Assembly (NCBI GenBank): GCA_025454775.1
Contig: JALONU010000008.1
Coordinates: forward strand, 1-34,869
Direction: 5' to 3'
Length of the DNA stretch: 34,869 nucleotides
Origin: Bacteroidales bacterium
GTDB lineage: Bacteria; Bacteroidota; Bacteroidia; Bacteroidales; VadinHA17
The translations under genes and the position numbers were made by a program. Shown here in pieces: positions 15,024 through 32,840 of this stretch. Under the pieces are notes generated by a model, which was not told where the DNA came from, did not search any database, and saw only the letters and a list, made by a program, of their open reading frames with translations. Within the stretch, counting starts at the first letter, position 1. Every line of letters begins with the position of its first letter.

Positions 15024-16925
15024 ATGAGCGAGAACATCAAGCACGAATGCGGCATCGCCCTGCTGAGATTGCGGAAGCCGTTTGAATACTATATTGAAAA
15101 ATACGGATCATGGGACTACGGCCTGCAGAAGATGTACCTCATGATGGAAAAACAGCACAACAGGGGGCAGGATGGAGCCGGAATAGCAGGCATTAAACTC
15201 GACACACCGCCGGGTAACCGGTACATCTTCAGGCAAAGATCCAACAAGGCAGACCCCCTGAGGGAGATATTCGGCCTGATAAACGAGGATATTGAAAAAA
15301 TAACCGGTAACATCTCTTCCGTCGGTATAACACCAGCTTTCATCAAGGAAAAAATACCCTATGCCTGCGATGTATACCTTGGTCACCTGAGATACGGGAC
15401 TTACGGCAATTATAAAATTGACTACGTCCACCCGGTCAGCCGCGAGAATAACTGGAAATCAAAAAACCTGGTGATGGCGGGGAACTTCAACCTTACGAAT
15501 GTTGGCGAGGTTTTCAACCATCTTGTTGATCTCGGGCAGAATCCGGTCGATTTCTCCGACACGGTGACAATACTGGAAAACATTGGTCACAGGCTCGACG
15601 AGGAAAATGAAAGGCTTTACTGGCAGTTCAAGGATCAGGGGTACTCCAAAAAGGAGATATCTCCATTGATAGAAAGGAGCCTCGACCTTGTGAAGATTCT
15701 ATCGAAGGCAAGCAGGAACTGGGACGGAGGATATGCCATGGCCGGACTTGTTGGTCATGGAGATGCTTTCGTAATGAGAGATCCTTCAGGTATCAGGCCT
15801 GCTTTTTATTATATTGATGATGAAGTAGTTGTGGTAGCATCGGAAAGGCCGGTTATCCAAACGATCTTCAATGTCCGCACCGACAATGTGCTCGAGCTTC
15901 CTCCTGCCCATGCCCTCATAGTTAAGGCTTCCGGAGAAACATCCGTCGAAAGGATCAGGGATGATGCCGAAATAAGAAAATGCTCGTTTGAGAGGATATA
16001 TTTTTCCAGAGGCACCGACAAATCGATTTACAGGGAAAGAAAAAAGCTTGGGGAGCTTCTGACAGATGCAGTCCTCAGGGCAGTTGACCACGACCTCGAC
16101 CACACGGTCTTTTCGTACATTCCCAACACAGCTGAGAGTGCTTTCTACGGACTGATCAAGGGAGTGGAAAACTACCTGAACAAATGGAAGACAGAAACAA
16201 TAATTCAAGGGGCTAAGTCGCTGACGGCAGCTGAAATAACCGAAATTATAAACCGGAGGCCGAGAGTTGAAAAGATTGCCGTGAAGGATGCCAAGCTCAG
16301 AACCTTCATTACCGGCGACAGGGGCAGGGATGATCTCGTGGGCCATGTGTACGATGTAACCTATGGTGTGATAAAGAGAGGCGAAGATAACCTTGTTGTG
16401 ATCGACGACTCGATTGTCAGGGGAACCACCCTCCGGAAAAGCATCATCCGTATTCTCGACAGGCTCGACCCCAAAAAGATAGTCATCGTTTCATCCTCGC
16501 CCCAGATCAGGTACCCCGACTGTTACGGGATAGACATGGCAAAGCTTTCTGACCTGGTGGCTTTCAGGGCTGCAACGGAACTTCTCAGGGATCATGGACG
16601 CGAACAGATGATAAGGGACCTGTACGAGGAGGCCAGGGAGGAGAACATGAAACCCGTAAACGAGATCCGAAACCTTGTCAGGGAGATTTACAAACCCTTC
16701 TGCAGCGAGGAGATATCAGGCAAGATATCGTCAATGCTCAGGTCGGAAGAAGTAAGGGCTGAAGTCAAAATAGTATTCCAGTCGATTGAAGGGCTTCATG
16801 AAGCATGCCCGGGGCATACCGGCGACTGGTACTTCACAGGCAACTATCCCACGCCAGGAGGGAACAAGGTTGCGAACCAGTCGTTTATAAACTTCGTGGA
16901 AGGAAGGAATGCCAGGGCTTACTAA
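15024..16925 (+). CDS. Amidophosphoribosyltransferase homologue, long Bacteroidota form
   Basis: A 633-residue PurF-type enzyme: an N-terminal Ntn glutamine amidotransferase plus a phosphoribosyltransferase domain. The nucleophile would be Cys9 (KHECGIALL), which implies removal of eight residues as in PurF. Other glutaminase motifs are QHNRGQDGAG and GHLRYGTYG; the PRPP loop is DDSIVRGTT at 461-469, followed by SSSPQIRYPDCYGID. The family reaction is PRPP plus glutamine to phosphoribosylamine, the first step of purine synthesis. It is about 130-160 residues longer than classical PurF, with extra sequence before the PRPP domain and at the C-terminus. Bacteroidota often carry both a short PurF and this long form, so I do not assign the symbol purF. 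Start at 15024 puts it 4 bases after the SPOR gene. Its 3' end overlaps the convergent glsB-like gene by 4 bases. Confidence 0.88.
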   Translation: MSENIKHECGIALLRLRKPFEYYIEKYGSWDYGLQKMYLMMEKQHNRGQDGAGIAGIKLDTPPGNRYIFRQRSNKADPLREIFGLINEDIEKITGNISSVGITPAFIKEKIPYACDVYLGHLRYGTYGNYKIDYVHPVSRENNWKSKNLVMAGNFNLTNVGEVFNHLVDLGQNPVDFSDTVTILENIGHRLDEENERLYWQFKDQGYSKKEISPLIERSLDLVKILSKASRNWDGGYAMAGLVGHGDAFVMRDPSGIRPAFYYIDDEVVVVASERPVIQTIFNVRTDNVLELPPAHALIVKASGETSVERIRDDAEIRKCSFERIYFSRGTDKSIYRERKKLGELLTDAVLRAVDHDLDHTVFSYIPNTAESAFYGLIKGVENYLNKWKTETIIQGAKSLTAAEITEIINRRPRVEKIAVKDAKLRTFITGDRGRDDLVGHVYDVTYGVIKRGEDNLVVIDDSIVRGTTLRKSIIRILDRLDPKKIVIVSSSPQIRYPDCYGIDMAKLSDLVAFRAATELLRDHGREQMIRDLYEEAREENMKPVNEIRNLVREIYKPFCSEEISGKISSMLRSEEVRAEVKIVFQSIEGLHEACPGHTGDWYFTGNYPTPGGNKVANQSFINFVEGRNARAY

Positions 16926-17893
16926 TGTTCCCGCATGAACCACGGGATGAAGAAATCCTTCTTGTAGGAAGCAAGGTGCCTGTTTATCTTCTCAACATAT
17001 ATGTCCCTGAGAGTGATCATGATCCCGGTCTCCTCAACATTGCCGAAATGATGATTTATGAAAGTGCCGAACACACGCATTGTGGGTGAAAGGTTCATAT
17101 ATGCATTTATCAGCGGCGGGATGACCTCTCCCAGGTTCCTTACTTCTGCCGAAAGGGTCTTGTAATCTTCCTTGTAGCGCCAGCTCCTGAAAAGTTTTTT
17201 CATCTCCTCCTCATTCAGGTCGATGACCGCAGGTTCCTTTGGTATCACCAGTCCTTCAGGATCACCGAAGTGCTTCTTCAGGAAATAAAGGATCATATTT
17301 CTTGCCTTGCGGTTAAAATGGGGATACATGGTAACCTTTCCGAAAAGGAACTTAATATGATGGTTCTCCAGGAAGAGGGCCCCCAGACCGTCCCAGATAT
17401 TGTCGAGGGCGAACAGGCTTTTCCTTCCCATGGCCTTCGACTGATAGTCGGGATGTACGAAAGAACGACCGAGTTCCATCACGTGGGGCAGGTATTTACC
17501 CTGGAACTTCTCAGAAAAATTGAAGTACAGCGACGATGCCAGCTTGCTGACGTCACAGTTGGTGCATCCTTTGGGTACAAAGTAGTAACGGTAACCTCCC
17601 ACTATTTCCCTGTTTTCAGGATCCCATACGATAAGCTGTTTCTGCGGATCCTCACCGGCTGTATCGTAATCATCGATGTCGATGGCATGGCCTGTTCCCC
17701 CGCCGGCAGCTCTGAAGGTTATCTCCCTCACCCTGCCTACTTCCTGCATCAGGACAGGGGAACTGTTATTGTCAAAAATGTAAACCTCATTGTTCCCGTT
17801 GTTGGTAAGGCGGAGAAGCTTGTCGGGAGTGAGTTCCGCCATTATCTGTTCTATCGGCTGGCGGGCAACAATCGGCCGGGATTCATTATTCAT
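16922..17893 (-). CDS. glsB: GNAT-type lipid N-acyltransferase (GlsB/OlsB-like)
   Basis: A 323-residue protein of the GNAT-fold family that includes ornithine-lipid OlsB and the Bacteroides glycine N-acyltransferase GlsB. Recognisable pieces are EVGRVREITFRAAGGGTG near residues 52-69, the central IVGGYRYYFVPKG strand, ELGRSFVHPDYQ (acyl-thioester/ACP-binding core) and FLFGKVTMYPHFN. In Bacteroides, GlsB N-acylates glycine with a 3-hydroxy fatty acid, giving lyso-glycine lipid (commendamide), and GlsA adds the second acyl chain. The gene sits directly downstream (50 bases) of an O-acyltransferase of that kind, which supports this reading over haemolysin-type annotations. Amino-acid substrate (glycine, ornithine or another) is inferred from phylum, not visible. 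Confidence 0.82.
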   Translation of the reverse strand: MNNESRPIVARQPIEQIMAELTPDKLLRLTNNGNNEVYIFDNNSSPVLMQEVGRVREITFRAAGGGTGHAIDIDDYDTAGEDPQKQLIVWDPENREIVGGYRYYFVPKGCTNCDVSKLASSLYFNFSEKFQGKYLPHVMELGRSFVHPDYQSKAMGRKSLFALDNIWDGLGALFLENHHIKFLFGKVTMYPHFNRKARNMILYFLKKHFGDPEGLVIPKEPAVIDLNEEEMKKLFRSWRYKEDYKTLSAEVRNLGEVIPPLINAYMNLSPTMRVFGTFINHHFGNVEETGIMITLRDIYVEKINRHLASYKKDFFIPWFMREH

Positions 17894-17943: not shown

Positions 17944-18809
17944 TTAAATCCGGTCTTTATTTTTTATCAGGGATTCGAGCTCATATGACTTTCCCTTAAC
18001 CCATTCGGCCCATTCTGAAGGTGTTTTTGAGCTGTCGAAAGTCTGCCACGGAATAGGCTTCCCGAAGACCAGGGATATTTCCTTTTTCTTCTGGCTGAAC
18101 ATTTCATCGGGCAGATAGAGCATTTCAATGTTTGCCTTGATCCCCAATGCCTTCCTGAAATTTGAAAGGTTGTAGAAGAAGTTGGAATTGCGCCCGGAGA
18201 AATACGCCGGTATCACATCCCTTTTATGCTGTACTGCCTTCGTTATGAAGCTTTTATGCCAGACCAGGTCCTGTATGACACCCTTCCTTTTGCGTGAACA
18301 CAGGCCGAAGGGAAAATATAGTATCTGGCTGTCGGAAGCATATGTTTCCTCAAGCATCCTGATCGCATCCCTTGCCTGCCCTCCGTGCTTGTTCACCGGA
18401 AGAAAAATACCGGAAAGGTTACGGAGATTCATCAGGAGATCGTTGACAGGGAACTTAATATCCCTGAATGCTTGCCGAGTTCATTCATGAACACCAGCCC
18501 GTCGAGTCCTCCGAGAGGGTGGTTGGAAACGAAAAAAAACCTTCCTGATGAGGGGATGTTCCCGCTGCCGTATACCTGGTAGGTAATACCCATGGTATCA
18601 AGTGTCGGCTGTATGAAGTCAATATCCTTCAGATGACCGTGATCCCTCAGTATTCCGTTTATGTCGTCCTGGTGAATTATTTTTTTCAGGTACCTTATCA
18701 CAAAGCCGGGAATAAGCCTGGCAAGAGTCGGATTTTTTGAGCTGATAACTTTCTCAACATCAATCTGAAGCGATTCCTTATTTTCTGTTGATCCCTCCAT
18801 CTGAAACAT
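17944..18809 (-). pseudogene. glsA: PlsC-like O-acyltransferase (GlsA/OlsA-like), broken by a one-base frameshift
   Basis: Two overlapping frames together encode one acyltransferase. The first (18809-18432, 125 aa) carries the N-terminal half and the catalytic segment FFFVSNHPLGGLDG. It loses family similarity after MNELGKHSG and stops at TGA. The second frame, read from the GGG run at 18462-18464, continues the expected sequence (IKFPVNDLLMNLRNLSG, FLPVNKHGGQARDAIRMLEE, ILYFPFGLCSRK) to 17944. Adding one G to the run restores a single protein of about 288 residues. The enzyme would O-acylate the lyso-lipid made by the adjacent glsB product. TGA of the first frame shares its A with an ATG of the second (TGATG at 18432), which could allow coupled translation of two halves. 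Whether the shift is real or a sequencing error cannot be told from one sequence. Confidence 0.8.
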
Positions 18810-18834: not shown

Positions 18835-18929
18835 TAATTTTTTCACACAGTTCCCGGTGCCCTTGTACCGGGGTTAAGTGGACCCGAATATATACATCCT
18901 TAAAAGTTTTCAACAAAAAAAGAAAAAAG

Positions 18930-18954
18930 TGGGGCAAAGTGGGGGAAAGTGGAT
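18930..18954 (+). promoter_or_regulatory. MraZ operator (three TGGGN boxes, 10-bp period)
   Basis: TGGGG-CAAAG-TGGGG-GAAAG-TGGAT: three boxes start at 18930, 18940 and 18950, each separated by 5 bases. This is the arrangement of the MraZ binding region known from E. coli and Mycoplasma (direct TGGGN repeats with 5-bp spacers). The third box is degenerate (TGGAT). It lies 40-65 bases before the mraZ start, so MraZ probably autoregulates the dcw cluster here. An imperfect -7 element (TACTTTAG, 18965-18972) follows; no good -33 box is visible. Confidence 0.85.
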
Positions 18955-18994
18955 ATTTTTTCTTTACTTTAGCCTTTTGTTGAAAAAATCAGGG

Positions 18995-19462
18995 ATGGCC
19001 ACATTTATAGGCGATTATACGTGCAAGGCGGATGTAAAGGGAAGGATAATCCTTCCCATGGCATTCAAGAAGCAGATGCCTGCTGATGCACGCGACCAGT
19101 TTGTGGTTCGGAAAGATATCTTCGAGAACTGCCTTGTACTCTATTCGATCGAAGACTGGAACAGGCAGCTCGAAAAGATCAGGAAGAAGATCAATCCCTA
19201 CAACAGGGAACATAACAAATTCCTGAGAAACTTCTTCAAGGGTACCGCCGAGCTGACCCTCGACAATAACAACAGGATGCTTATCCCGAAAAGGCTTCTC
19301 GACCTTATTGGAGCGCAGAGAGATGTGGTGCTTGCAGGACAGGACGGAAGGATCGAGATATGGGCTGCTGATGCATATGAAAGGATAGATCTTCCTGCCG
19401 AAGAATTCGCAAGCCTGGCAGAGAAGCTTATGGGAGGTACAATTAACGGGTCTGAGGAATAA
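18995..19462 (+). CDS. mraZ: Transcriptional regulator MraZ
   Basis: DNA-binding regulator of the dcw cluster, forming ring-shaped oligomers that contact the repeated operator boxes. The 155-residue protein has two AbrB-like half-domains, each with the DxxxR signature: Asp13-Arg17 (DVKGRIILP) and Asp90-Arg94 (DNNNRMLIP). The ATG at 18995 is chosen because it gives the conserved N-terminus (ATFIGDYTCKADVKGR); an in-frame start at 18878 would lie upstream of the operator. The stop codon overlaps the rsmH start (TAATG). Confidence 0.95.
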   Translation: MATFIGDYTCKADVKGRIILPMAFKKQMPADARDQFVVRKDIFENCLVLYSIEDWNRQLEKIRKKINPYNREHNKFLRNFFKGTAELTLDNNNRMLIPKRLLDLIGAQRDVVLAGQDGRIEIWAADAYERIDLPAEEFASLAEKLMGGTINGSEE

Positions 19463-20358
19463 TGGCTTACCACGTACCTGCATTGCTGGATGAGAGTATC
19501 AGGGGTCTGAATATCCGGCCTGACGGGATTTATGTCGATGCAACCTTTGGAGGCGGCGGCCATTCCCGAGAAATCCTTAAGAGGCTTAAGAAAGGAAAAC
19601 TAATTGCATTTGACCAGGATGACGATGCTTCTGCCAATGTTCCTGATGATGAAAGGTTCATTTTTCTCGATCAGAATTTCCGCTTCCTGAGGAACAACCT
19701 GGTATTCAACGGAATAAAATCCATCGACGGGCTTATTGCAGATCTCGGAGTTTCATTTCACCAGTTCGACGAAACAGAGAGGGGATTCACCTTCCGGCAC
19801 AATGCGCCTCTCGACATGCGGATGAACAAAAAAGGCTCACTGACTGCCGAGGCGTTGCTGGAAACAGCAGATGAAGAGATCCTCGCGGGAATATTCTTCA
19901 GTTACGGAGAACTGCAAAACTCGAGAAAGCTGGCAAGGAACATTGCTGAGGCACGTACGAAGCGACCGCTGAAAAATGCAGGAGACCTCATATCCGCAAT
20001 CAACGGACTCGCCCCTGCACGTCAGGAAAACAAGTATTACGCAAGAGTATTTCAGGCCCTCCGCATAGCTGTGAACCACGAGATAGACTTCCTCAAGGAG
20101 ATGCTTTTGCAGTCTCTCGATCTGCTGACTCCGGGAGGAAGACTGGTTATAATAACCTATCACTCGCTAGAGGACAGGATTGTGAAGAATTTCATGAGGA
20201 CCGGAAATTTTGACGGTGTGGTCACAAAGGATTTCTACGGTAACGCCCGGGAACCCTTCAGGGTAATCACGAAAAAGGGGATAACTCCGGATGCTGACGA
20301 GATTGAACGCAACAGCCGGTCGAGAAGCGCCAGGCTGAGGATAGCTGAAAAGTTATGA
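19462..20358 (+). CDS. rsmH: 16S rRNA m4C1402 methyltransferase RsmH (MraW)
   Basis: SAM-dependent N4-methylation of C1402 of 16S rRNA. The 298-residue protein starts YHVPALLDESIRGL and has motif I VDATFGGGGHSREIL (25-39), the FDQDDDA acidic loop, LGVSFHQFD, ERGFTFRHNAPLDMRM and the YHSLEDRIVKNF segment near residues 233-244; all are RsmH hallmarks. The start shares one base with the mraZ stop. The end is 3 bases before the FtsL-like gene. RsmH is the second gene of most dcw clusters. Confidence 0.96.
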   Translation: MAYHVPALLDESIRGLNIRPDGIYVDATFGGGGHSREILKRLKKGKLIAFDQDDDASANVPDDERFIFLDQNFRFLRNNLVFNGIKSIDGLIADLGVSFHQFDETERGFTFRHNAPLDMRMNKKGSLTAEALLETADEEILAGIFFSYGELQNSRKLARNIAEARTKRPLKNAGDLISAINGLAPARQENKYYARVFQALRIAVNHEIDFLKEMLLQSLDLLTPGGRLVIITYHSLEDRIVKNFMRTGNFDGVVTKDFYGNAREPFRVITKKGITPDADEIERNSRSRSARLRIAEKL

Positions 20359-20361
20359 AGG

Positions 20362-20721
20362 ATGGAGAAAGGCACGAAGAAGAATGAAGCCGGAAGCAAG
20401 CCGGGGAGTTTCATAAAGGAACTGCTGAGCGGGACGATGATCTCCGAAAAGATCATCCTGAACAACCTCTGGTACATTCTTCTCCTGACCCTTCTGGCAG
20501 CAGTGTATATCGGCAACAGGTTTCATGCAGAAAAGGTCACAAGGCAGATGACAAGACTGCAGCGCGAGGTAAAGGAACTTCGTGCCGAGTCGCTTGCAAC
20601 ATCGGCCAGCCTTATGGACCTGAGCCGGCAGAGCGAAGTTTACAGGCTGGTGAAGGAGAAGGGACTTAACCTTGAGGAACTGAAGGCCCCTCCCTATAAG
20701 CTACTTGTAGACAGAAAATAA
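20362..20721 (+). CDS. ftsL: FtsL-like septum protein
   Basis: A 119-residue bitopic membrane protein. A cytoplasmic basic N-terminus of about 30 residues is followed by one TM helix (residues ~36-52, NLWYILLLTLLAAVYIG), then a helical, coiled-coil-prone segment (VTRQMTRLQREVKELRAES) and a short C-terminal tail. Sequence is weakly conserved in this family, and the call rests on topology and position between rsmH and ftsI, where Bacteroidota place FtsL. FtsL with FtsB and FtsQ activates the FtsWI synthase. No ftsB is in the window. Confidence 0.8.
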   Translation: MEKGTKKNEAGSKPGSFIKELLSGTMISEKIILNNLWYILLLTLLAAVYIGNRFHAEKVTRQMTRLQREVKELRAESLATSASLMDLSRQSEVYRLVKEKGLNLEELKAPPYKLLVDRK

Positions 20722-20725
20722 CCGG

Positions 20726-22840
20726 ATGGCCGTAAGGGATGAAATAGTATGGCGCACAGGCGCGGTCTATATTGCAACGGCAGTTGTTGCACTTGCAATA
20801 CTTGTAAGGATACTGATCCTGCAGACAATCCAGCATGGGAGATGGACAGCAATGGCGGAACGTTACGTTTATAACACTTCCGAAATGCCTGCAGTCAGGG
20901 GAGATATCCTGGCATATGACGGACGCCTTCTTGCCAGCTCGGTGCCCTATTACACGATTTACATGGACACAAGGAGCACCGGAATGTCGTCATACACCTG
21001 GAACAAGGGGATCGATGGCCTCTGTGCAGGACTGGCAAAGCTGCTCGGTGTCAGATCAGCAGCAGGATGGAAGGCGGTGATCACTGAAGCACGAAGGAGA
21101 GGCGACAGATATTTCCTGATAAAAAGGAGGGTCGATTACGAGACCCTGAAGAAGCTCCGTGAACTTCCCATCTTCAGGGAAGGACAGTACCGTGGAGGAC
21201 TAATGGCCCAGTCAGAAAACAGGCGTATTAACCCGAACAGCGAACTTGCAGCAAGGACAATCGGATACCTGAACCAGGGAACTGAGGGTACGGTTGTGGG
21301 GCTGGAAGGTTCCTTCGACAGGGAGCTGGGAGGAAAGAACGGAGTTGTAGTGAAGCAGCGGCTTACCGGCGGCGACTGGATTACGATAAGCGATGCCAGC
21401 AGCGTTGAACCCAGGGACGGGAACGACATAGTGACGACGATCGATATTGACCTTCAGGATGTCGCATCGACCGCGTTGGAAAACCAGCTGAGAAAGTATA
21501 ATGCCCATCACGGATGTGCGATCGTTATGGAGGTTGAGACCGGCGATATCAGGGCAATCGCAAACCTGGAACAATCAGAAGACGGAAGTTATCATGAAAC
21601 GTACAATTATGCCATAGGTGAAAGCACCGAACCCGGCTCGACGTTCAAGCTCCCTGCTCTGATGGCAGCTCTTGAGGATGGTGTGATCGATACAGGCGAC
21701 TATGTTGACACCGGAACAGGGACGGTTAAATTCTACGACAAGGTTATAAGGGATACAAAGGAAGAAGGTTATGGCAGGATCACTGTCAGGGAGGTATTTG
21801 AAAAATCCTCGAACGTTGGAACATCAAAAATTATCTGGCAGCATTATAAGGATAATCCCGAAAAATGGGTCAGCAGACTCTATGCGATGAAGCTCAACGA
21901 GAAGCTCGGAATCCAGATAAAGGGAGAAGGAACTCCCCTCATAAGGTATCCGGGCGACAAGCTCTGGTCAGGTCTTTCACTCCCCATGATGTCGCACGGT
22001 TATGAAGTGCTGATGACTCCTCTTCAGATACTTACGTTCTACAACGCCGTTGCCAACGACGGCAGGATGGTTAAACCGCGGTTTGTGACAGCCGTCATGA
22101 GAAACGGGAACATTGTCAGAAGATATGAACCCGATGTGATCATCAACTCTATTGCTTCCAGGTCCACGATCAAAAAGGCAAAAAAAATGATGGAAGGTGT
22201 TGTGGAACATGGAACGGCAGTAAATCTGAAGAACAGCAATTACAGGATCGCAGGAAAAACAGGGACGGCACAGATCGCACGTGGACGGACCGGTTACCGG
22301 TCGGGTCAGCGTATATCATACCAGGCATCTTTTGTAGGCTATTTCCCTGCAGAGAACCCTCTTTATTCCTGCATCGTGGTCGTCAATGCCCCCTCGAACG
22401 GAGTATACTACGGCAACATAGTTGCAGGATCAGTATTCAGGGAGATAGCGGATAAGCTGTATGCCACAAGTTTTTACAGGGACTATACCACCAATGCCGT
22501 TGCGGTCAGGAAATATGCCGCTCCCGAAGCCGGTAACGGATACAGACCCGATATCAGCAAAGTCCTCAGGGACCTCGATGTAAGATATCGCCGCTCGGCC
22601 ACAAACGACTGGGTAAAAACACGGGAAAGCGGTGACACGGTAAAGCTCGTTGACCTCAGCATAAAAAAAGGGATGGTCCCGGATGTACGCGGGATGAGCC
22701 TCAGGGATGCAATGTACCTTCTTGAGAATTCAGGATATAAGGTAAGCTACAGCGGAAAGGGAAAGGTCCGCCGGCAATCGCCTGAGCATGGCGCAAGATA
22801 TTTTGAGGGACAGGTTGTCTCTCTCGATCTGAATATGTGA
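20726..22840 (+). CDS. ftsI: Septal transpeptidase FtsI (PBP, class B) with C-terminal PASTA domain
   Basis: Cross-links septal peptidoglycan. The 704-residue protein has an N-terminal TM anchor (residues ~13-33), the class B dimerisation domain beginning at VRGDILAYDGRLLA (57-70), and a transpeptidase domain with STFK (Ser305-Lys308, acylation site), SSN (361-363) and KTGT (511-514). Residues ~645-704 form a single PASTA domain (GMVPDVRGMSLRDAMYLLEN). PASTA on the division PBP is usual in Bacteroidota and Firmicutes but absent from E. coli FtsI. It begins 4 bases after the ftsL stop, and its own stop overlaps a possible GTG start of murE. Confidence 0.96.
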   Translation: MAVRDEIVWRTGAVYIATAVVALAILVRILILQTIQHGRWTAMAERYVYNTSEMPAVRGDILAYDGRLLASSVPYYTIYMDTRSTGMSSYTWNKGIDGLCAGLAKLLGVRSAAGWKAVITEARRRGDRYFLIKRRVDYETLKKLRELPIFREGQYRGGLMAQSENRRINPNSELAARTIGYLNQGTEGTVVGLEGSFDRELGGKNGVVVKQRLTGGDWITISDASSVEPRDGNDIVTTIDIDLQDVASTALENQLRKYNAHHGCAIVMEVETGDIRAIANLEQSEDGSYHETYNYAIGESTEPGSTFKLPALMAALEDGVIDTGDYVDTGTGTVKFYDKVIRDTKEEGYGRITVREVFEKSSNVGTSKIIWQHYKDNPEKWVSRLYAMKLNEKLGIQIKGEGTPLIRYPGDKLWSGLSLPMMSHGYEVLMTPLQILTFYNAVANDGRMVKPRFVTAVMRNGNIVRRYEPDVIINSIASRSTIKKAKKMMEGVVEHGTAVNLKNSNYRIAGKTGTAQIARGRTGYRSGQRISYQASFVGYFPAENPLYSCIVVVNAPSNGVYYGNIVAGSVFREIADKLYATSFYRDYTTNAVAVRKYAAPEAGNGYRPDISKVLRDLDVRYRRSATNDWVKTRESGDTVKLVDLSIKKGMVPDVRGMSLRDAMYLLENSGYKVSYSGKGKVRRQSPEHGARYFEGQVVSLDLNM

Positions 22841-22845
22841 TTATT

Positions 22846-24300
22846 ATGGAACTTGGGAAAATACTTTCAGGAATAAGCATCATTTCCTATACAGGGGAAG
22901 ACAGGAGGTCTATCGAGGACATAACCTTTGATTCGAGGACGGTCAGCCCCGGTTCTCTCTTTGTCGCTGTGAGGGGTACACACACCGACGGGCATGATTT
23001 CATTCAGAAAACAGTTGAGTCAGGTGCTTCGGCAGTTATCTGCGAGGCGCTTCCCGAAAATCCTTCCCGTGATGTCGCATGGATAAGAACAGGAGATTCT
23101 GCAAGCGCTCTCGGGCAGGCTGCATCCAACTTCTTCGGGAATCCCTCATCATCCCTGAAACTCGTGGGAGTGACAGGTACAAACGGCAAAACAACAATCG
23201 CAACCCTTCTTTACAGGTTGTTTACAGGGCTGGGTTACAAGTGCGGGCTTTTCAGCACAGTCTGCAATTATGTCGCGGGCAGGGAACTTCCTGCCACGCA
23301 TACCACTCCCGATCCTGTACAGCTGAACAGGACCATGGCTGAGATGGCTGATGCGGGATGCAGCTTCGCCTTCATGGAAGTAAGCTCACATGCCGTTCAC
23401 CAGCAGAGGATCGCAGGTCTTGAATATGCAGGCGGGATCTTTACGAACCTGACCCATGACCATCTCGACTATCACCTTACATTCGAAAATTACCTGGCGG
23501 CAAAGAAAAGCTGGTTCGACTCACTGGGTCCGGATTCATTTGCCCTGGTGAATGCCGATGACAGGAACGGAAGCGTTATGCTTCAGAATTGCAGGGCCGG
23601 CCACTATACTTTCTCGGTCAGGGGGATGGCCGATTTCCGCTGCAGGCTGGTAAGCCAGAGTTTCGAGGGGATGGAACTAAGGATAATGGACAATGAACTG
23701 TGGACGAGATTTGTAGGTGATTACAATGCATCGAACCTGCTGGCAGTATACGGCGCCGCCGTTCTCCTGGGCGCCGGGAAGGATGAGATACTGACAGTAC
23801 TCAGCAGCCTTACACCCGTTGCCGGCAGGATGGAAGTAATAAGGTCGGAAAGCGGAATAACAGGGATAGTGGATTATGCCCATACCCCGGATGCCCTGGT
23901 GAATGTGATTGGTACCATCAACAAGGTAAGGAAGGAAAGCATTCAGCTTATCACCGTGGTGGGAGCAGGAGGCGACAGGGATAAAACCAAACGGCCCAAA
24001 ATGGCAGCGATATCGGCTGAAGGGAGCAGCAGGCTGATACTGACCTCTGACAATCCGAGAACCGAGAATCCGGAGATGATACTCGACGACATGGAAGCCG
24101 GTTTATCAGCTGCCCTGAAAAAGAAGACGCTGAGAATAGCCGACAGGAGGGAAGCAATCAGGACGGCAGTTATGCTCTCTAACCCGGGTGATGTTATCCT
24201 GGTAGCCGGAAAGGGACATGAACCCTACCAGGAGATCAACGGCGTAAGGCACCATTTCGACGACAGGGAGGAGCTGAGGAAAGCATTTTCACAAAGTTAA
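22846..24300 (+). CDS. murE: UDP-MurNAc-L-Ala-D-Glu:meso-DAP ligase MurE
   Basis: ATP-dependent ligase adding the third stem-peptide residue. The 484-residue protein has the Mur N-domain ([25 protein letters not shown]), the ATP loop GTNGKTT (111-117), HTTPDPVQL substrate contacts and the DNPR motif at 402-405. DNPR is diagnostic of meso-diaminopimelate rather than lysine specificity, so this organism's peptidoglycan is predicted to be of DAP type. I chose the ATG at 22846; a GTG three codons upstream overlaps the ftsI stop and is a less likely alternative. mraY follows after 11 bases; murF, which would add D-Ala-D-Ala next, is not in the cluster. Confidence 0.95.
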
Positions 24301-24311
24301 AGGCAAAAAGG

Positions 24312-25568
24312 ATGCTGTACTATTTATTTCAATATCTCGATAATCTGAATGTTCCCGGAGCAGGCGTCTTTTCGTACATATCCTTCCGATCGGCTGCAGC
24401 CGTGATTACCTCACTTATCATCTCAATGCTCATCGGAAAGAAGATCATCCGCTTTCTTCAGAAGAAACAGGTGGGTGAAGTTGTCAGGGACCTCGGCCTG
24501 GAAGGGCAGTACCGCAAGGAAGGAACACCATCGATGGGAGGAATAATCATCCTGGCGTCCATCATGATACCGGTCCTGCTCTTTGCAAAGCTCGACAATG
24601 TTTATATAATCCTGATGCTGCTGACGACCCTGTGGCTCGGATTCATAGGATTCCTGGACGATTACATCAAGGTTTTCAGAAAGAACAAGGAAGGGCTGGC
24701 AGGAAGGTTCAAGGTCATCGGACAGGTGGTCCTCGGATTAATAGTAGGGGTAACCCTGTTCCTCAGCGATGATGTTCTGACAGTGGAGACTGCAAATGTT
24801 TCGTCGATGAGTGTTAGGGAGAGGAATGAGCTCATTGAGACAACGGCCGGCGAAAACGGCCATTCCGGTTTCAAACCTGATAAGACCACCATTAAAACCA
24901 CAATACCCTTTGTCAAGAACAACGAATTCGACTATTCGTGGCTCGTATCGTTCATAGTGAAGGACAGACGGCAGCCCTGGACCTGGCTGGTCTTTGTTCT
25001 GATAGTGATTTTCGTTATTACCGCAGTGTCGAACGGGGCTAATCTCACCGACGGTCTCGACGGGCTGGCAACCGGGACATCTGCCATTGTAGGGGTTGCC
25101 CTTGCCATCCTGGCCTACGTGTCGAGTAATATAATCTATGCCGATTACCTTAATATAATGTTCATCCCGCACTCCGAGGAGCTTGTGATCTTTGCCGCCT
25201 CGCTAATAGGAGCCACCATCGGATTTCTCTGGTATAATTCCTACCCGGCGCAGGTTTTCATGGGCGACACGGGTTCGCTGGCACTCGGTGGCATAATTGC
25301 GGTTTTTGCGATAGTAATAAGGAAGGAGCTCCTGATACCGGTGCTCTGCGGCATCTTCCTTATGGAAAACCTGTCGGTGGTGCTGCAGGTCTCCTGGTTT
25401 AAAAGAACAAAGAAGAAATACGGAACGGGAAGGAGGATCTTCCTCATGGCTCCGCTCCACCATCATTATCAGAAAAAAGGATATCCCGAACCGAAAATAG
25501 TCACACGGTTCTGGATAGTGGCAATAATCCTTGCCGTAATAAGCATTGTGACTCTCAAGATCAGGTAG
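24312..25568 (+). CDS. mraY: Phospho-MurNAc-pentapeptide translocase MraY
   Basis: Integral membrane enzyme transferring phospho-MurNAc-pentapeptide to undecaprenyl phosphate (lipid I). The 418-residue protein shows GTPSMGG (71-77), FLDDYIK with Asp116/Asp117, [12 protein letters not shown] with Asp247/Asp250, and HHH at 383-385, all conserved active-site residues, among about ten membrane helices. It is some 50-60 residues longer than E. coli MraY because of a polar insertion at ~152-222 between two TM helices, a length typical of Bacteroidota MraY. The gene is followed after 4 bases by murD. Confidence 0.96.
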
Positions 25569-25572
25569 GGTG

Positions 25573-26910
25573 ATGAAGAAGAGGATCGTAATACTGGGTG
25601 CGGGCGAAAGCGGCGCAGGGTCAGCAATCCTGGCGCTGAAGAAGGGCTTTGATGTGTTTGTTTCCGACATGGGCACAGTAAAGGATATTTACCGTAAGAT
25701 GCTGGATGATAACGGGATAGACTGGGAGGAAGGGAAGCACAGTGAGAGTATGATCCTGACGGCCGATGAAGTCATCAAGAGCCCCGGAATAAAGGAGGAT
25801 GCGCCGATAGTGAAACTCGTAAAGGAGAAAGGGATCCCCGTGATATCGGAAATTGAATTTGCGGGAAGGTATGCGTCAGGCAAAAAGATATGCATTACCG
25901 GGAGCAACGGGAAAACCACCGTCACCAACCTTATCTATCATATCCTGAAAAAAGCCGGGATGGATGCGGCCATGACCGGAAATGTCGGAAACAGCTTTGC
26001 CATGGCAGTGGCTGAGAAGGATTATGATTATTATGTTATCGAGTTAAGCAGCTTCCAGCTCGACGGGATGTACGACTTCAGGGCCGACATCGCAATACTG
26101 ATGAACATCACCCCTGATCATCTCGACAGGTACGGATACCAGCTTCAGAATTATGTAGACTCCAAGTTCAGGATCATACGCAACCAGAAGGAATCGGATT
26201 TTTTCATTTACTGGGCCGATGATCCGATCATCAGGGCTGAGCTGGTAAAGATACAGCCCGGGATGACGCTTCTGCCATTTTCCGACACAGCCGCGGAAGG
26301 CATGGCAGCTTATGCAGAGAACAGCCAATTAATAATTGATTACCCAAATAAAACGAACCTTATGACCATTCATGAACTGGCGCTGAAAGGACGTCACAAC
26401 ACTTACAACTCAATGGCTGCCGCCATTGCCGCAAAAGTGCTGAACATCCGCAAGGATGTAATAAGAGAAAGCCTGGCCGATTTCCAGGGTGTCGAGCACC
26501 GGCTTGAACCGGTAATCAAAGTCAGCGGGATCAGCTTCATTAACGACTCAAAGGCTACCAATGTGAACTCTACATGGTATGCCCTTGAGTGCATGGAAAC
26601 GGCAGTGGTATGGATAGTGGGAGGCGTCGACAAGGGAAACGACTACTCGGAGCTCTTCCCCGTCGTGAAACAGAAAGTCAAGGCAGTCGTATGCCTGGGG
26701 AAGGACAACAGGAAGATCATTGAGGCTTTCAGCGACAAGGTGCCGACCATTATCGAAACCACGTCGATGGAAGAGGCGGTCCGGTCATCCTATTACCTGG
26801 CGAAAAAAGGAGAGACCGTACTTCTTTCTCCTGCCTGTGCAAGCTTCGATCTCTTTAACAATTACGAGGACAGGGGACGCCAATTCAAGGCTGCGGTAAG
26901 GAACCTGTAA
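25573..26910 (+). CDS. murD: UDP-MurNAc-L-alanine:D-glutamate ligase MurD
   Basis: Adds D-Glu to UDP-MurNAc-L-Ala in the cytoplasm. The 445-residue protein has the N-terminal Rossmann fold (RIVILGAGESGAGSA), the ATP loop GSNGKTT (110-116), the NITPDHLDRY motif and the NDSKATN segment characteristic of MurD. The ATG at 25573 follows a GTG at 25570 that would add one residue; I prefer the ATG. ftsW begins 11 bases after the stop. Confidence 0.95.
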   Translation: MKKRIVILGAGESGAGSAILALKKGFDVFVSDMGTVKDIYRKMLDDNGIDWEEGKHSESMILTADEVIKSPGIKEDAPIVKLVKEKGIPVISEIEFAGRYASGKKICITGSNGKTTVTNLIYHILKKAGMDAAMTGNVGNSFAMAVAEKDYDYYVIELSSFQLDGMYDFRADIAILMNITPDHLDRYGYQLQNYVDSKFRIIRNQKESDFFIYWADDPIIRAELVKIQPGMTLLPFSDTAAEGMAAYAENSQLIIDYPNKTNLMTIHELALKGRHNTYNSMAAAIAAKVLNIRKDVIRESLADFQGVEHRLEPVIKVSGISFINDSKATNVNSTWYALECMETAVVWIVGGVDKGNDYSELFPVVKQKVKAVVCLGKDNRKIIEAFSDKVPTIIETTSMEEAVRSSYYLAKKGETVLLSPACASFDLFNNYEDRGRQFKAAVRNL

Positions 26911-26921
26911 AGAACCGGGAT

Positions 26922-28133
26922 ATGCAGAAGGGCTGGCTTACAAGGACATTCAGGGGCGACAGGGCTATATGGGGCCTTGTAGTCCTGTTTATGATTTATT
27001 CACTCCTTGCAGTATACAGCTCTTCCGTCGGAGTGGCTTTCAGAAGTCATGGAGGCAATACGACCTATTTCCTCAGGAGCCAGTTCATAATGCTTTTGCT
27101 CAGCCTGGGTATTATTATAATAGTGTCGTACCTTCCATATAAGATCTATTTTTCACTTGCAGGATTGTTCCTTATAATTTCTGCCGGCCTGCTGGTGCTC
27201 ACCCTCGTCTTTGGCGCAAGGGTGAATGAAGCCACGCGATGGCTGGTAATTCCCGGAACGGATTTCAAACTCCAGACTTCGGATGTGGCAAAGGTTGCCC
27301 TGGTGATCTGGCTCGCCCGTACACTTGCCAAATACCAGCATGAGCTTCGGAATTTCATGCTCGTGACCAGGCTCTTCATGATACCCGTCGCTGTGATATG
27401 TGCTCTCATTATGCCCGAGAACCTGTCAACTGCCATGATGATCTTCGGGATGAGCATGATAATCCTGTTCATAGGAAGGGTGCCTCTGAAATATCTCCTG
27501 GCCTATACGGGAATGGCTGTGGTTGGTGTCGTGCTATTTGCCCTGGTGCTGACCTGGGTCAGCGACGACAACAGGGTCGAGGTATGGAAGAACAGGATCG
27601 AAAATTATTTCTCCGGAAACCCAGATGAGGATGAAGACTACCAGGCCAACCAGGCAAAAATTGCAATAGCCACCGGAGGTCTTTTCGGAAAAGCACCCGG
27701 AAGGAGCACCCAGAGGAATATGCTCCCCCAGTCGAACTCGGATTTCATCTTTGCGATAATAATAGAGGAATACGGGCTTTTTCTTGGGGCAATTCCCCTT
27801 ATCCTGGCCTATATGATATTGTTGTTCAGGGGAGTAACCATCGCTAAAAAGTGCGAGACGGCATTCCCGGCATTCCTGGTGCTGGGGCTTATCATAATGA
27901 TTGTTGTCCAGGCTTTTCTGAATATGCTGGTGGCGGTGGGATTATTCCCTGTAACGGGACAGACCCTGCCAATGGTAAGCTGGGGAAGGACTTCTGTTCT
28001 TATGATGAGCTTTTCGATAGGGGCGATCCTCAGCGTCAGCAGGGTGGTAAATGCAAAGATGAGGAAAGAGGAGCTTCCGGAGGAGGAAAAAACGGAGGAA
28101 GGAGAAAGGATATATGAACCGGCAAAAGCATAA
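26922..28133 (+). CDS. ftsW: Septal glycosyltransferase FtsW (SEDS)
   Basis: Polymerises lipid II at the septum together with FtsI. The 403-residue protein has about ten membrane helices. Family markers include LRSQFIMLLLSLG early, the extracytoplasmic loop with the conserved acidic residue in SNSDFIFAIIIEEYG, and the C-terminal GQTLPMVSWGRTSVLMMS block (the usual PF(L)SYGG region reads MVSWGRTS). It ends in a charged cytoplasmic tail rich in Lys and Glu (~25 residues). The 3' end overlaps murG by 20 bases. Confidence 0.94.
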   Translation: MQKGWLTRTFRGDRAIWGLVVLFMIYSLLAVYSSSVGVAFRSHGGNTTYFLRSQFIMLLLSLGIIIIVSYLPYKIYFSLAGLFLIISAGLLVLTLVFGARVNEATRWLVIPGTDFKLQTSDVAKVALVIWLARTLAKYQHELRNFMLVTRLFMIPVAVICALIMPENLSTAMMIFGMSMIILFIGRVPLKYLLAYTGMAVVGVVLFALVLTWVSDDNRVEVWKNRIENYFSGNPDEDEDYQANQAKIAIATGGLFGKAPGRSTQRNMLPQSNSDFIFAIIIEEYGLFLGAIPLILAYMILLFRGVTIAKKCETAFPAFLVLGLIIMIVVQAFLNMLVAVGLFPVTGQTLPMVSWGRTSVLMMSFSIGAILSVSRVVNAKMRKEELPEEEKTEEGERIYEPAKA

Positions 28134-29226
28134 AAGGATCATTATCAGCGGAGGTGGTACAGGAGGACATGTGTTTCCTGCCATATCGATCGCCAACGCC
28201 CTCAGGCGTGTAGACCCTGAGACAGAGATCCTTTTTGTCGGAGCTGAAGGAAGAATGGAAATGGAAAAAGTGCCTGCAGCAGGATACAGGATCGTGGGGC
28301 TGCCGGTGACAGGATTCCGGAGGAGCCTGACACCCGCGAACATAATCGTTCTGTACAGACTTTTCAAAAGCATGATGAAGGCACGCAGGATAATCAGGGA
28401 ATTCAATCCCGACGTAGCTGTGGGAGTAGGAGGGTATGCCAGCGGACCTGTCCTGAAGCAGGCCGGACGAATGGGTATCCCGACCCTGATCCAGGAACAG
28501 AACAGCTATGCAGGTATAACAAACAAGCTGCTCGCAAAAAAAGCTTCGGTGATCTGTGTTGCCTATGAGGGCATGGAAAAGTACTTTCCGGCAGAAAAAA
28601 TCATCAAGACCGGGAATCCGGTCCGTCAGAACTTCGACAACCTTGAGAATTACCGCGAAGCTGCACTCGCGTTCTTTGGTCTTGACAACAAAAAGCCGGT
28701 AATTCTTGTCCTCGGAGGTTCACTGGGTGCCGGAACCCTGAACCGCAGCCTTACAGAGAACATCGATAAAGTTGCTTCCTCGGGATGCCAGTGGCTCTGG
28801 CAGACAGGAAAGGTCTATTTTGAAAAGATCAGCGGGCTCATCACTGAAAAAAGCATATCAAATATCTCGGTTCACAGCTTCATCAACAGGATGGAATATG
28901 CATTTGCAGCGGCTGATGTAATTGTCTCAAGGGCAGGTGCCGGAACCATATCGGAACTCTGCCTGGTAGGGAAGCCTGTTATACTTGTCCCATCACCAAA
29001 TGTCGCAGAGGATCATCAGACAAGAAATGCCCTGGCCCTCACCTACAGGAATGCCGCCATTATGGTAAAAGACAAGGAAGCTGTAAAAAGGCTTGTAGAT
29101 GAAGCAATTAAACTGGTTGACAACATGGAGGAGAGAGCTTCGCTGTCGGCTGCCATCCTGAAAATGGCAGACAGGGATGCAGATTCGAGGATTGCAGATG
29201 AAATACTAAAGCTTGCCGGAAAGTGA
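28114..29226 (+). CDS. murG: Lipid II synthase MurG
   Basis: Peripheral membrane glycosyltransferase adding GlcNAc to lipid I. The 370-residue GT28 protein has the N-terminal glycine loop GGGTGGHVFPA (13-23) with the conserved His19, IQEQNSYAGITNKLLA, the second glycine loop LVLGGSLGAGTLN, and the UDP-GlcNAc site VSRAGAGTISEL and PSPNVAEDHQTRNA. The start lies within the 3' end of ftsW, and the stop overlaps the murC GTG start (GTGA). Confidence 0.96.
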   Translation: MNRQKHKRIIISGGGTGGHVFPAISIANALRRVDPETEILFVGAEGRMEMEKVPAAGYRIVGLPVTGFRRSLTPANIIVLYRLFKSMMKARRIIREFNPDVAVGVGGYASGPVLKQAGRMGIPTLIQEQNSYAGITNKLLAKKASVICVAYEGMEKYFPAEKIIKTGNPVRQNFDNLENYREAALAFFGLDNKKPVILVLGGSLGAGTLNRSLTENIDKVASSGCQWLWQTGKVYFEKISGLITEKSISNISVHSFINRMEYAFAAADVIVSRAGAGTISELCLVGKPVILVPSPNVAEDHQTRNALALTYRNAAIMVKDKEAVKRLVDEAIKLVDNMEERASLSAAILKMADRDADSRIADEILKLAGK

Positions 29227-30611
29227 ACGGATTCGGGAACATAAAAGGATTCTATTTTGTCGGCATTGGCGGCATAGGCATGAGCGCCCTGGCATTTTAC
29301 TTTGCAGGCAGGGGCGCAGCTGTTGCCGGTTACGACAGGTCACAGAACCAGATAACCGAATCGCTCGAAGCTGCAGGATGCAGCATAACTTATAGCGACG
29401 AGACCACCGCCATACCTGAATTCTTCAGGGATCCTGCCAACAGGGATGTAATCCAGATAGTCTTCACCCCGGCAATTCCTCAGGAAAACAATATTCTCAG
29501 GTTTTTCAGGGACCAGGGATATTCTGTTGCAAAGAGGTCGGAAGTACTCGGAATCCTTTCATCGGCGACAGATACCATTGCGGTCGCAGGGACCCACGGC
29601 AAGACCACTGTCTCGACGATGACGGCTCACCTGCTCAAACAGTCGGCTGTGGACTGTTCCGCTTTTCTCGGGGGCATTTCCAAGAATTACAGCTCAAACC
29701 TGATCACAGGCAGCAGCCGGTATACGGTCATGGAAGCCGATGAATATGACAGGTCGTTCCACAGGCTGAAACCCCTCATCGCAGTCGTTACAGCGGTAGA
29801 TCCTGACCACCTGGAGGTTTACGGAACGCATGAATCTATGATTGAAGCTTATAATGAGTTTATTCAGAAGATCAGGCAGGGAGGCATACTTATATATAAT
29901 TGCCGTATCAGGGACCAGATCAGGATTCCGAGGGACGTAAAGGCATTCAGCTATGGTGATTGCCCTCAGGCTGATTACAGGTATTCAGGCATTGAGAACA
30001 AAGGCGATTATTACCTCTTCAATCTGAACACTCCCGCCGAAACCATCAGCAATATCCATTTTCCCTTTCCCGGGAAGATCAACATTGAAAATCTTACGGC
30101 GGCCATTGCTGCTGCAATGAACTGCGGCGTCAGCGAAAGCGAGATAAGAAAGGCGGCAGTACTCTTCCAGGGAGTAAGGAGACGCTTTGACATAAGGATC
30201 AACAGACCCGGCTTCACGTATATCGACGATTATGCCCATCATCCTGAAGAGATAAAAGCCTTTATCGGGTCTGTCAGGGAATATTTCGGAAACAGGAAGA
30301 TAACCGCGATATTCCAGCCCCACCTGTTCACCCGGACCCGTGATCATGCAGAAGGCTTCGCAGGAATACTCGACAGGTTGGATGAAGTGATACTGCTCCC
30401 GGTTTATCCTGCCAGGGAGAAGCCGATACCCGGCGTGTCGTCGGAGATGATATTTCAGCGTATGAAGCTGGTGAACAAACGCCTGCTTGAAATGAAAAAC
30501 ATTCCCGCGGAGCTCGATGCCTCAGAGCTTGATGTTCTGCTTACGATCGGTGCAGGGGATATCGACAGGCTTGTCGCACCCATTGAAAATAAATTCAGGG
30601 AGGCCGGATGA
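29223..30611 (+). CDS. murC: UDP-MurNAc:L-alanine ligase MurC
   Basis: First amino-acid ligase of the stem peptide. The 462-residue protein has an N-terminal Rossmann fold (FVGIGGIGMSALA), the ATP loop GTHGKTT (123-129), the MEADEYDRSFHRLKP motif, and DDYAHHPEEI, all MurC-specific. The start is a GTG overlapping the murG stop, the only start that keeps the conserved N-terminus without running deep into murG. The 3' end overlaps ftsQ by 4 bases (ATGA). Confidence 0.95.
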   Translation: MNGFGNIKGFYFVGIGGIGMSALAFYFAGRGAAVAGYDRSQNQITESLEAAGCSITYSDETTAIPEFFRDPANRDVIQIVFTPAIPQENNILRFFRDQGYSVAKRSEVLGILSSATDTIAVAGTHGKTTVSTMTAHLLKQSAVDCSAFLGGISKNYSSNLITGSSRYTVMEADEYDRSFHRLKPLIAVVTAVDPDHLEVYGTHESMIEAYNEFIQKIRQGGILIYNCRIRDQIRIPRDVKAFSYGDCPQADYRYSGIENKGDYYLFNLNTPAETISNIHFPFPGKINIENLTAAIAAAMNCGVSESEIRKAAVLFQGVRRRFDIRINRPGFTYIDDYAHHPEEIKAFIGSVREYFGNRKITAIFQPHLFTRTRDHAEGFAGILDRLDEVILLPVYPAREKPIPGVSSEMIFQRMKLVNKRLLEMKNIPAELDASELDVLLTIGAGDIDRLVAPIENKFREAG

Positions 30612-31390
30612 TGAGGAAGATATTTAAAATATTGCTCCTGGTCCCCGTGCTTTATCTTTTCGCAATGCCGGTTTACTATGCTGCGTCCTGCAGCAGCCTG
30701 CCATGCAGCGGGATAGAAGTCAGGATCGCAGATTCTGCTGATTACCATTTTGTGACAAAAAGGCAGCTTCTTAACCTGGCACAGGGAAACAGCAGCAGGA
30801 TAATCGGTAAGCCGATGGGTGAGCTGGCTGTCAATGAAATAGAGAACCGTATCAATGTCCTCCGTGAGCTTAAAATAGCAGAAGTCTACACAACTATCGA
30901 CGGAAAAATCCACCTTTACGTCGACCAGCGCAATCCAGTGCTGAGGATCATTCCCGACGACGGAGGGGACTTCTTCCTGGATGAGGAAGGCTGGCTCTTC
31001 AGGAAAAGGAACCTGTACAATCCCAGGCTTCATATCATCGGGGGCAACATAACGATAACTCCTGCGATGCTAGACAGCGTGGGCATACTGGATACGCTGA
31101 TCAGGAGAAGCATCCTGAAGGATGCATTTCATTTTGTGAATTACATCAGGGGCGACAGTTTCTGGTCGGCACAGATCGATCAGATCCATGTTGACGAGAA
31201 TGATGAGATAAACCTCATTCCCAGGGTCGGCAATCATATAATTCACCTCGGAACCTTTGAAAACTACAGGGGAAAGCTCAGAAACCTGGAAGCCTTCTAT
31301 GAAAAGGTCATGCCGGTAGCAGGATGGGATAAATATTCACTTATCAACCTTGAATACCGGGACCAGGTAGTGTGCCGGAAACGAAATTGA
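30608..31390 (+). CDS. ftsQ: Cell-division protein FtsQ
   Basis: A 260-residue bitopic protein: TM helix at residues ~6-26 (FKILLLVPVLYLFAMPVYYAA), then a periplasmic region with a short POTRA-like first part (FVTKRQLLNLAQ, GKPMGELAVNEIENRINVL) and the FtsQ/DivIB beta domain (IHLYVDQRNPVLRII, FFLDEEGWLF). FtsQ links FtsLB to the divisome. Start at 30608 overlaps the murC stop; an ATG one codon later is equally possible. The C-terminus (SLINLEYRDQVVCRKRN) fits the short Bacteroidota form. Confidence 0.92.
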   Translation: MMRKIFKILLLVPVLYLFAMPVYYAASCSSLPCSGIEVRIADSADYHFVTKRQLLNLAQGNSSRIIGKPMGELAVNEIENRINVLRELKIAEVYTTIDGKIHLYVDQRNPVLRIIPDDGGDFFLDEEGWLFRKRNLYNPRLHIIGGNITITPAMLDSVGILDTLIRRSILKDAFHFVNYIRGDSFWSAQIDQIHVDENDEINLIPRVGNHIIHLGTFENYRGKLRNLEAFYEKVMPVAGWDKYSLINLEYRDQVVCRKRN

Positions 31391-31409
31391 GAAACCATAT
31401 TTGATTCAT

Positions 31410-32777
31410 ATGAACAGGAAAGAACAGTACGTAGCAGCAATCGACATCGGAACCACGAAAATCGTGGCTATTGTCGGCAGAAAGAACGAGAACGGAAAAA
31501 TCGAAATTCTCGGCCTCAGCAAAGCCCTTTCAAAAGGAGTGAAGAGAGGGATCGTCATGAATATCGAGGACACTGTGAATGCTATCCAGACCACAGTTGA
31601 CGATGTTCAGAAAAGATCCGGGATAATGTTCTCGGAAGTCTTTGTGGGGATAGCGGGGCAGCATATCAAGAGCATGAAGAACCGCGGATATATAATAAGG
31701 GAAAACTATGAGGATGAGATCCGGAAGGAGGAGGTTTTCAGGCTGATAGAAGATATGCACAAAATCCACATCGACATAGGGGAGGAAATAATTCATGTTA
31801 TACCCCAGAATTTCATTGTCGACAACGAGACCGGGGTTAAAAGCCCGATAGGAATGTGCGGCAGAAGACTGGAAGCCAACTTTCACATTGTTATCGGCCA
31901 GGTTGCTGCTGCCAAGAACATAGAAAAATGTGTCCGCAAGGCCGGGCTTGAGGTGAGGGATATGATCCTTGAACCCCTCGCTTCGTCGGATTCGGTTCTT
32001 ACCGAGGATGAGAAGGAAGCAGGAGTTGTACTTGTTGATATTGGTGGCGGAACAACCGATGTGGCCGTCTATTACGACAATATCATAAGGCACACGGCAG
32101 TGATACCGCTCGGAGGTAACGTCGTAACCAAAGACATCAAGGAAGGTTGCGCAATACTCCAGCGATATGCTGAGCAGCTGAAGATCCAGTACGGTTCTGC
32201 ACTCGGCGATATTGCACCTGACGACAAGGTTGTGGCTATACCGGGGATCAGCGGTCGGGAGCCTAAGGAGATCTCGTTCAGGAGTCTTGCTTACATAATC
32301 CAGTCAAGGATGGAGGAGATCATCGACTTTGTCAATTTCGAGATACAGAACTCCGGCTATGCCGACAAGCTTGCCGCAGGAGTGGTTATCACAGGCGGGG
32401 GAGCTATGCTGAGGCATCTTCCGCAGCTGATGAAATTCAAGACAGCCATGGACGTGAGGATAGGATACCCCAACGAACATCTTTCGGGGACGGGCAAGAC
32501 TGAAATCAACCAGCCCATGTACGCCACCAGCGTAGGACTGATCATGAGAGGTTTCGAATACCTCGACACTTACAGGCAGACATTCAACGCCGACACCGAA
32601 CAGGAATTCGTAAGGCCTGTCGTGAAGGAGAAATACGAAGAAACCGCAGCAGTTGAGGATACTGTCGAAGCTGCCACCGGGGAGGAAGTGCCCGTGTCTC
32701 AGAAGATTTCAATCAGCGAGAAGATAAAGGGCATAATGAAAAGCATATTCGAGGTGGAAGACCAGCCCATCAACTGA
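31410..32777 (+). CDS. ftsA: Divisome actin homologue FtsA
   Basis: Anchors FtsZ to the membrane. The 455-residue actin-fold protein has phosphate-1 AAIDIGTTKIVAIVG (9-23), phosphate-2 DIGGGTTD (210-217), and the 1C domain between. The C-terminal amphipathic segment KISISEKIKGIMKSIFE, near the end, is the expected membrane-targeting helix, preceded by a ~40-residue acidic linker. An in-frame TTG at 31401 is ignored in favour of the ATG at 31410. A 63-base gap separates it from ftsZ, the longest gap in the cluster after mraZ. Confidence 0.95.
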   Translation: MNRKEQYVAAIDIGTTKIVAIVGRKNENGKIEILGLSKALSKGVKRGIVMNIEDTVNAIQTTVDDVQKRSGIMFSEVFVGIAGQHIKSMKNRGYIIRENYEDEIRKEEVFRLIEDMHKIHIDIGEEIIHVIPQNFIVDNETGVKSPIGMCGRRLEANFHIVIGQVAAAKNIEKCVRKAGLEVRDMILEPLASSDSVLTEDEKEAGVVLVDIGGGTTDVAVYYDNIIRHTAVIPLGGNVVTKDIKEGCAILQRYAEQLKIQYGSALGDIAPDDKVVAIPGISGREPKEISFRSLAYIIQSRMEEIIDFVNFEIQNSGYADKLAAGVVITGGGAMLRHLPQLMKFKTAMDVRIGYPNEHLSGTGKTEINQPMYATSVGLIMRGFEYLDTYRQTFNADTEQEFVRPVVKEKYEETAAVEDTVEAATGEEVPVSQKISISEKIKGIMKSIFEVEDQPIN

Positions 32778-32840
32778 AAAGGATCAGATATGGTTAAGGG
32801 AGGAGAGTTTACTGTTCACTAACAATAAAAAAATCAATAT

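Follow-up and report, generated by a model that had tools for sequence, protein, structure and literature searches.

A glsA gene broken by a one-base frame change beside an intact glsB in a Bacteroidales draft genome

In this study, we describe a glycine-lipid locus in which glsA is interrupted by a one-base change of frame directly upstream of an intact glsB. The locus lies in the window, by which we mean the whole stretch of 34,869 nucleotides that was analysed (contig JALONU010000008.1 of assembly GCA_025454775.1, from a Bacteroidales bacterium), and the nearest named relatives of its host are uncultured Bacteroidales. We consider, with a little more than even confidence, that the break is a consensus or assembly error in one draft genome and that in life the organism probably produces an unbroken GlsA: one base would have been dropped from glsA in the draft consensus, and the true gene of the organism would be a whole frame. 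The features of the locus are as follows, with positions counted in the window.

18432-18809, minus strand: first piece of glsA, an ORF of 125 amino acids ending in TGA; it matches positions 1-102 of the GlsA model, carries SNHPLGGLDG (HX5D) and matches PF19576 at E=6.4e-23.
17944-18462, minus strand: second piece of glsA, in another frame; counted from the first residue (Asp) of DIKFPVND, it has 172 codons and then a stop; it matches positions 105-267 of the GlsA model, and PF19576 at E=1.6e-47.
18462-18471, minus strand: stretch of the frame change, a one-base shift whose best point is 18468.
18430-18434, minus strand: TGATG, in which the stop of the first ORF overlaps an ATG read as an internal Met in the second frame.
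16922-17893, minus strand: glsB, glycine N-acyltransferase, intact, 323 amino acids; NF053696 at 440.7 bits (cut-off 300).

The two pieces of glsA (minus strand, 18809-17944, directly upstream of glsB on the same strand) cover the NCBIfam model of GlsA (NF053697, 267 positions) nearly contiguously, from 1 to 102 and then from 105 to 267, but they do so in two frames. The first piece scores 120.3 bits and the second 263.3 bits, so that the second piece alone exceeds the curated cut-off of 260. No single frame holds the whole of GlsA, the first one being closed by the TGA at 18434-18432, and in the second frame the earliest start is at 18432, which leaves a start-to-stop ORF of 162 amino acids from 18432 to 17944 on the minus strand. 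Judged by sequence, the locus is classed as glsA with a broken frame and not as a demonstrated GlsA protein, and the operon is the ordinary, already known glsAB, with a predicted lyso-glycine-lipid O-acyltransferase (GlsA) followed by a predicted glycine N-acyltransferase (GlsB). The preliminary description of this DNA had recognised an acyltransferase beside glsB, an identity borne out by the NF053697 match of both pieces and the NF053696 match of their neighbour, and it had rightly set the break between the HPLGGLD segment and the VNDLL block, since SNHPLGGLDG lies in the first piece and DIKFPVNDLL in the other frame. Searching the whole genome with NF053697 returned, besides the two neighbouring pieces, a single distant paralogue, and no second GlsA copy reaching the family cut-off was found in it. 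The paralogue (C9:5079-5813) scores 117.2 bits against the 260 required; it was rejected as a second GlsA, and the OlsF model gives it a higher score (132.3 of 620 bits). Beside glsAB, from 18878 to 34325 on the plus strand, the window carries what we take to be a run of division and cell-wall genes starting with mraZ- and rsmH-like genes.

To place the frame change, we scored the possible points, over a span of 16 residues, with a profile built from 40 intact relatives, the alignment consisting of 40 of the 75 length-filtered sequences from 85 rows. The top point shares base 18468 between the two frames and reads NELGKHFRDIKFPVND, with 46.7 bits. The preliminary description had attributed the split to a base lost from the GGG run at 18462-18464: the one-base offset stands, but this placement reads NELGKHSGDIKFPVND and obtains 40.7 bits, 6 bits below the best. 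At the residue that decides between them, F is found in 20 of the 40 relatives, Y in 10, H in 6, W in 2 and R in 2, and S in none. The break thus probably lies outside the GGG run, four bases to its 5' side on the coding strand, the 6-bit gap being a moderate one that a single residue decides. The site itself is no long homopolymer, a point against the error reading. Two inverted repeats with six-base arms lie there, 18447-18452 pairing with 18461-18466 and 18465-18470 pairing with 18482-18487; we take them as chance, five such pairs occurring within 181 bases.

On both sides of the break, the gene has the features of a conserved enzyme. All 39 residues that are invariant in the 40 relatives are retained (9 of them in the first piece, 30 in the second), and so are 47 of 48 nearly invariant ones, the exception being an F for A at 165 that is shared by the nearest relative, G079, in the motif FPFGLCSRK. 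No further stop or frame change was found in glsA besides the single break. Compared with G079, whose glsA ORF is intact with a GlsA score of 394.4 bits, the broken gene has a pN of 0.149 in the first piece and 0.083 in the second (pS of 0.718 and 0.732), where the intact pair G079-G010 has a pN of 0.120 and 0.067. The pN of the broken glsA is therefore low and near that of intact pairs; only pN is informative here, because pS is saturated for many pairs.

We then come to the distribution of glsA in relatives. A search with the second piece covered 62 genomes of the genus, the source genome included, and a close orthologue (at least 69% identity) was present in 57 of the 61 others. Among these 57, 55 have a single open frame of at least 279 codons, the first half being judged by frame length alone in G060 and up and also searched in G001-G035. 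The preliminary description had named intact frames in all relatives, together with low read quality at the site, as what would speak against a real break, and its part on relatives is answered by these 55 intact genes. The two others are disrupted in other ways: in G021 (frame of 191), whose gene is the same as L097, a two-N gap replaces part of glsA, and in G080 (frame of 152) two pieces of the gene lie on contigs C59 and C104, the gene probably being cut by contig ends. In G021 (UBA2198), this scaffold gap (L097:2950-3010) hides the catalytic segment of glsA, and automatic annotation would call the gene split. Four genomes have no close orthologue, with a 49% match in G016, weak matches in G023 and G085, and no match in G031. 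G023 (completeness 99%) yields nothing for GlsB and a GlsA match of only 1.1e-4; the entire operon seems to have been lost there naturally. When the frames of 149 loci were checked, many of these being repeats of one gene, both halves were in the same frame in 136 and in different frames in 5, namely three copies of the source locus and two of G021; the remaining 8 (L002-L009), which are other acyltransferase loci of the source genome, received no verdict. Several relative rows list one TGA or one TAA, which we take as the gene's own stop from the matches reaching the query end and the frames being of full length. Of 59 other genomes searched, 50 match GlsB strongly (E-value no higher than 1.8e-79), and each of these 50 also matches GlsA, at E of 5.8e-47 or better, the two matches being on different contigs in G051. 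The glsB of G035 (C358:1131-2016) is covered by two matches that overlap, which may reflect a further frame break or a join made in assembly.

From these observations, we infer that the base was lost by error and not by mutation, because the orthologues of the same genus are single open frames with the exceptions given, because the only other disruption inspected (G021/L097) is an assembly scaffold gap with N letters, and because the invariant residues are kept on both sides of the break with little non-synonymous change. The co-occurrence of GlsA with GlsB (50 of 50), together with the intact glsB, also leans to an error. The main rival reading, which we consider a real possibility although we do not favour it, is that of a genuine, recent and private null mutation of glsA, in which GlsB works and the cell would make a mono-acyl (commendamide-like) glycine lipid with little or no diacyl form. 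The break does stand in the consensus, a recent event would leave the same conserved residues, and an apparent loss of the operon is seen elsewhere in the genus, in G023; but there is a single break, with no other stop or frame change and no invariant residue lost, GlsA accompanies GlsB in every other genome with a strong GlsB match, and the source genome has no second GlsA at the cut-off. Natural loss of glsA is the subject of no title in the literature among the matches listed. If the break were real, this would be a natural loss of glsA beside a working glsB, of which the 50 other glsB-bearing genomes give no case (0 of 50).

The general quality of the assembly was also considered. The source genome is of fair quality (288 contigs, 94.8% completeness, 1.05% contamination), another point against the error reading, and is probably a MAG, as are by title the first 48 named relatives listed (L070-L117). 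A survey of frame breaks, made on 657,772 of the 3,284,353 bases of the source genome and on 1,186,424 bases of G011, kept ORFs of at least 120 amino acids whose best match reached 50% identity and 70% coverage, which dropped most of the ORFs (847 and 497 were listed). Split genes amounted to 2 of the 89 in the source genome for which the sampled G011 stretches had an orthologue, or 1 of 88 without glsA, versus 1 of 87 in G011, and glsA was sampled by design, the G011 stretches L192 and L272 having been chosen near glsA on its contig. The rate in the source genome, not being above that of G011, is compatible with a private null mutation; it gives no sign of an error-prone assembly and does not separate error from mutation. 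The survey brought two side observations. In the source genome, a second break is found at C122:223-3302 (L204), in a gene that encodes a cytochrome c assembly protein (PF01578) in its second part; its frames have 819-1041 codons in 20 of the 22 other same-genus genomes searched and are short in G003 (418) and G021 (81), so that this break is nearly private to the source genome. In G011, one gene (L241:6641-7073) looks split into two frames compared with its match in the source genome.

The preliminary description had also raised the possibility that the enzyme is made in two pieces, and had read the overlap of stop and start as a sign of coupling. The overlap is indeed present: at 18434-18430 the TGA of the first ORF shares its letters with the ATG opening the ORF of 162 amino acids, and the second piece is conserved. 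The same letters TGATG, however, are found at the equivalent site in 22 of the 85 rows of relatives (and TAATG in 14 of 85), where ATG is read in frame as Met; the rows contain repeats of the same gene, and one of the 22 is L097, interrupted by the scaffold gap. TGATG is thus weak evidence for coupling, since the same letters occur in frame as Leu-Met, and in 10 of the 85 rows the loss of one base just before the Asp codon would terminate at the same position as here. The overlap is better explained as a chance product of the code: a Leu-Met codon pair, present in intact relatives as well, that the frame change exposes. An AlphaFold2 model of the GlsA of G079 (mean pLDDT of 83.1, pTM of 0.82) sets the break between a helix (98-108) and a strand (115-120), and this strand is covered by DIKFPVNDLL, which is absent from any product begun at the overlap ATG. 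A split function is unlikely because a second piece begun at this ATG would be without strand 115-120. Whole synthesis by programmed -1 frameshifting was rejected too, as no unusual RNA structure that could stimulate it was found (z = -0.68 over 111 nt, with 54 of 200 shuffles folding at least as well), no slippery heptamer of the form X XXY YYZ was seen by eye at the break, and the split is common to none of the 57 same-genus orthologues, G021 and G080 being disrupted otherwise. A working GlsA obtained either in two pieces through TGATG or whole by frameshifting is thus very improbable, and slightly more improbable still is the specific case of two polypeptides, made by termination and reinitiation at TGATG, that would come together again as a working or an altered acyltransferase.

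The consequence for the lipids can be considered from the characterized systems. According to passages of PMC12746155, glsB of Bacteroides dorei alone in Escherichia coli yields mono-acyl glycine lipids, which is in favour of the null mutation, and glsA with glsB yields bis-acyl ones; the same passages report no bis-acyl form in B. dorei itself, though it bears glsA. According to passages of PMC10191378, the steps follow this order also in Bacteroides thetaiotaomicron, in which GlsA and GlsB are named BT_3458 and BT_3459 in a passage of PMC12927429. A real loss of glsA, if true, would be expected to leave the mono-acyl lipid. The preliminary prediction of lyso (mono-acyl) lipids lacking the diacyl form fits the result of glsB alone in E. 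coli, but lipid content is not readable from the gene alone, because B. dorei, with glsA, showed no bis-acyl form. For annotation, the locus is a standard glsAB, and the species should not be read as being without diacyl glycine lipids unless the break is confirmed.

Compared with known systems, the locus resembles GlsA of Bacteroidota (NF053697) in the contiguous match of both pieces and the adjoining glsB, and differs from it by the one base that breaks the frame. GlsB is of full length, at 440.7 bits for a cut-off of 300 (NF053696), and no difference was seen. The bifunctional ornithine lipid synthase OlsF (NF052615) is alike in that its two parts match glsA and glsB, but here they are two separate genes and not a fusion, with scores of 58.8, 101.6 and 187.2 bits that are far below its cut-off of 620. 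Finally, the model of the G079 GlsA matches the fold of PlsC (5KYM) with a Foldseek E-value of 4.1e-08 (TM of 0.47 by query length, rmsd of 7.0), a protein that the sequence profile search reaches only at E=0.035.
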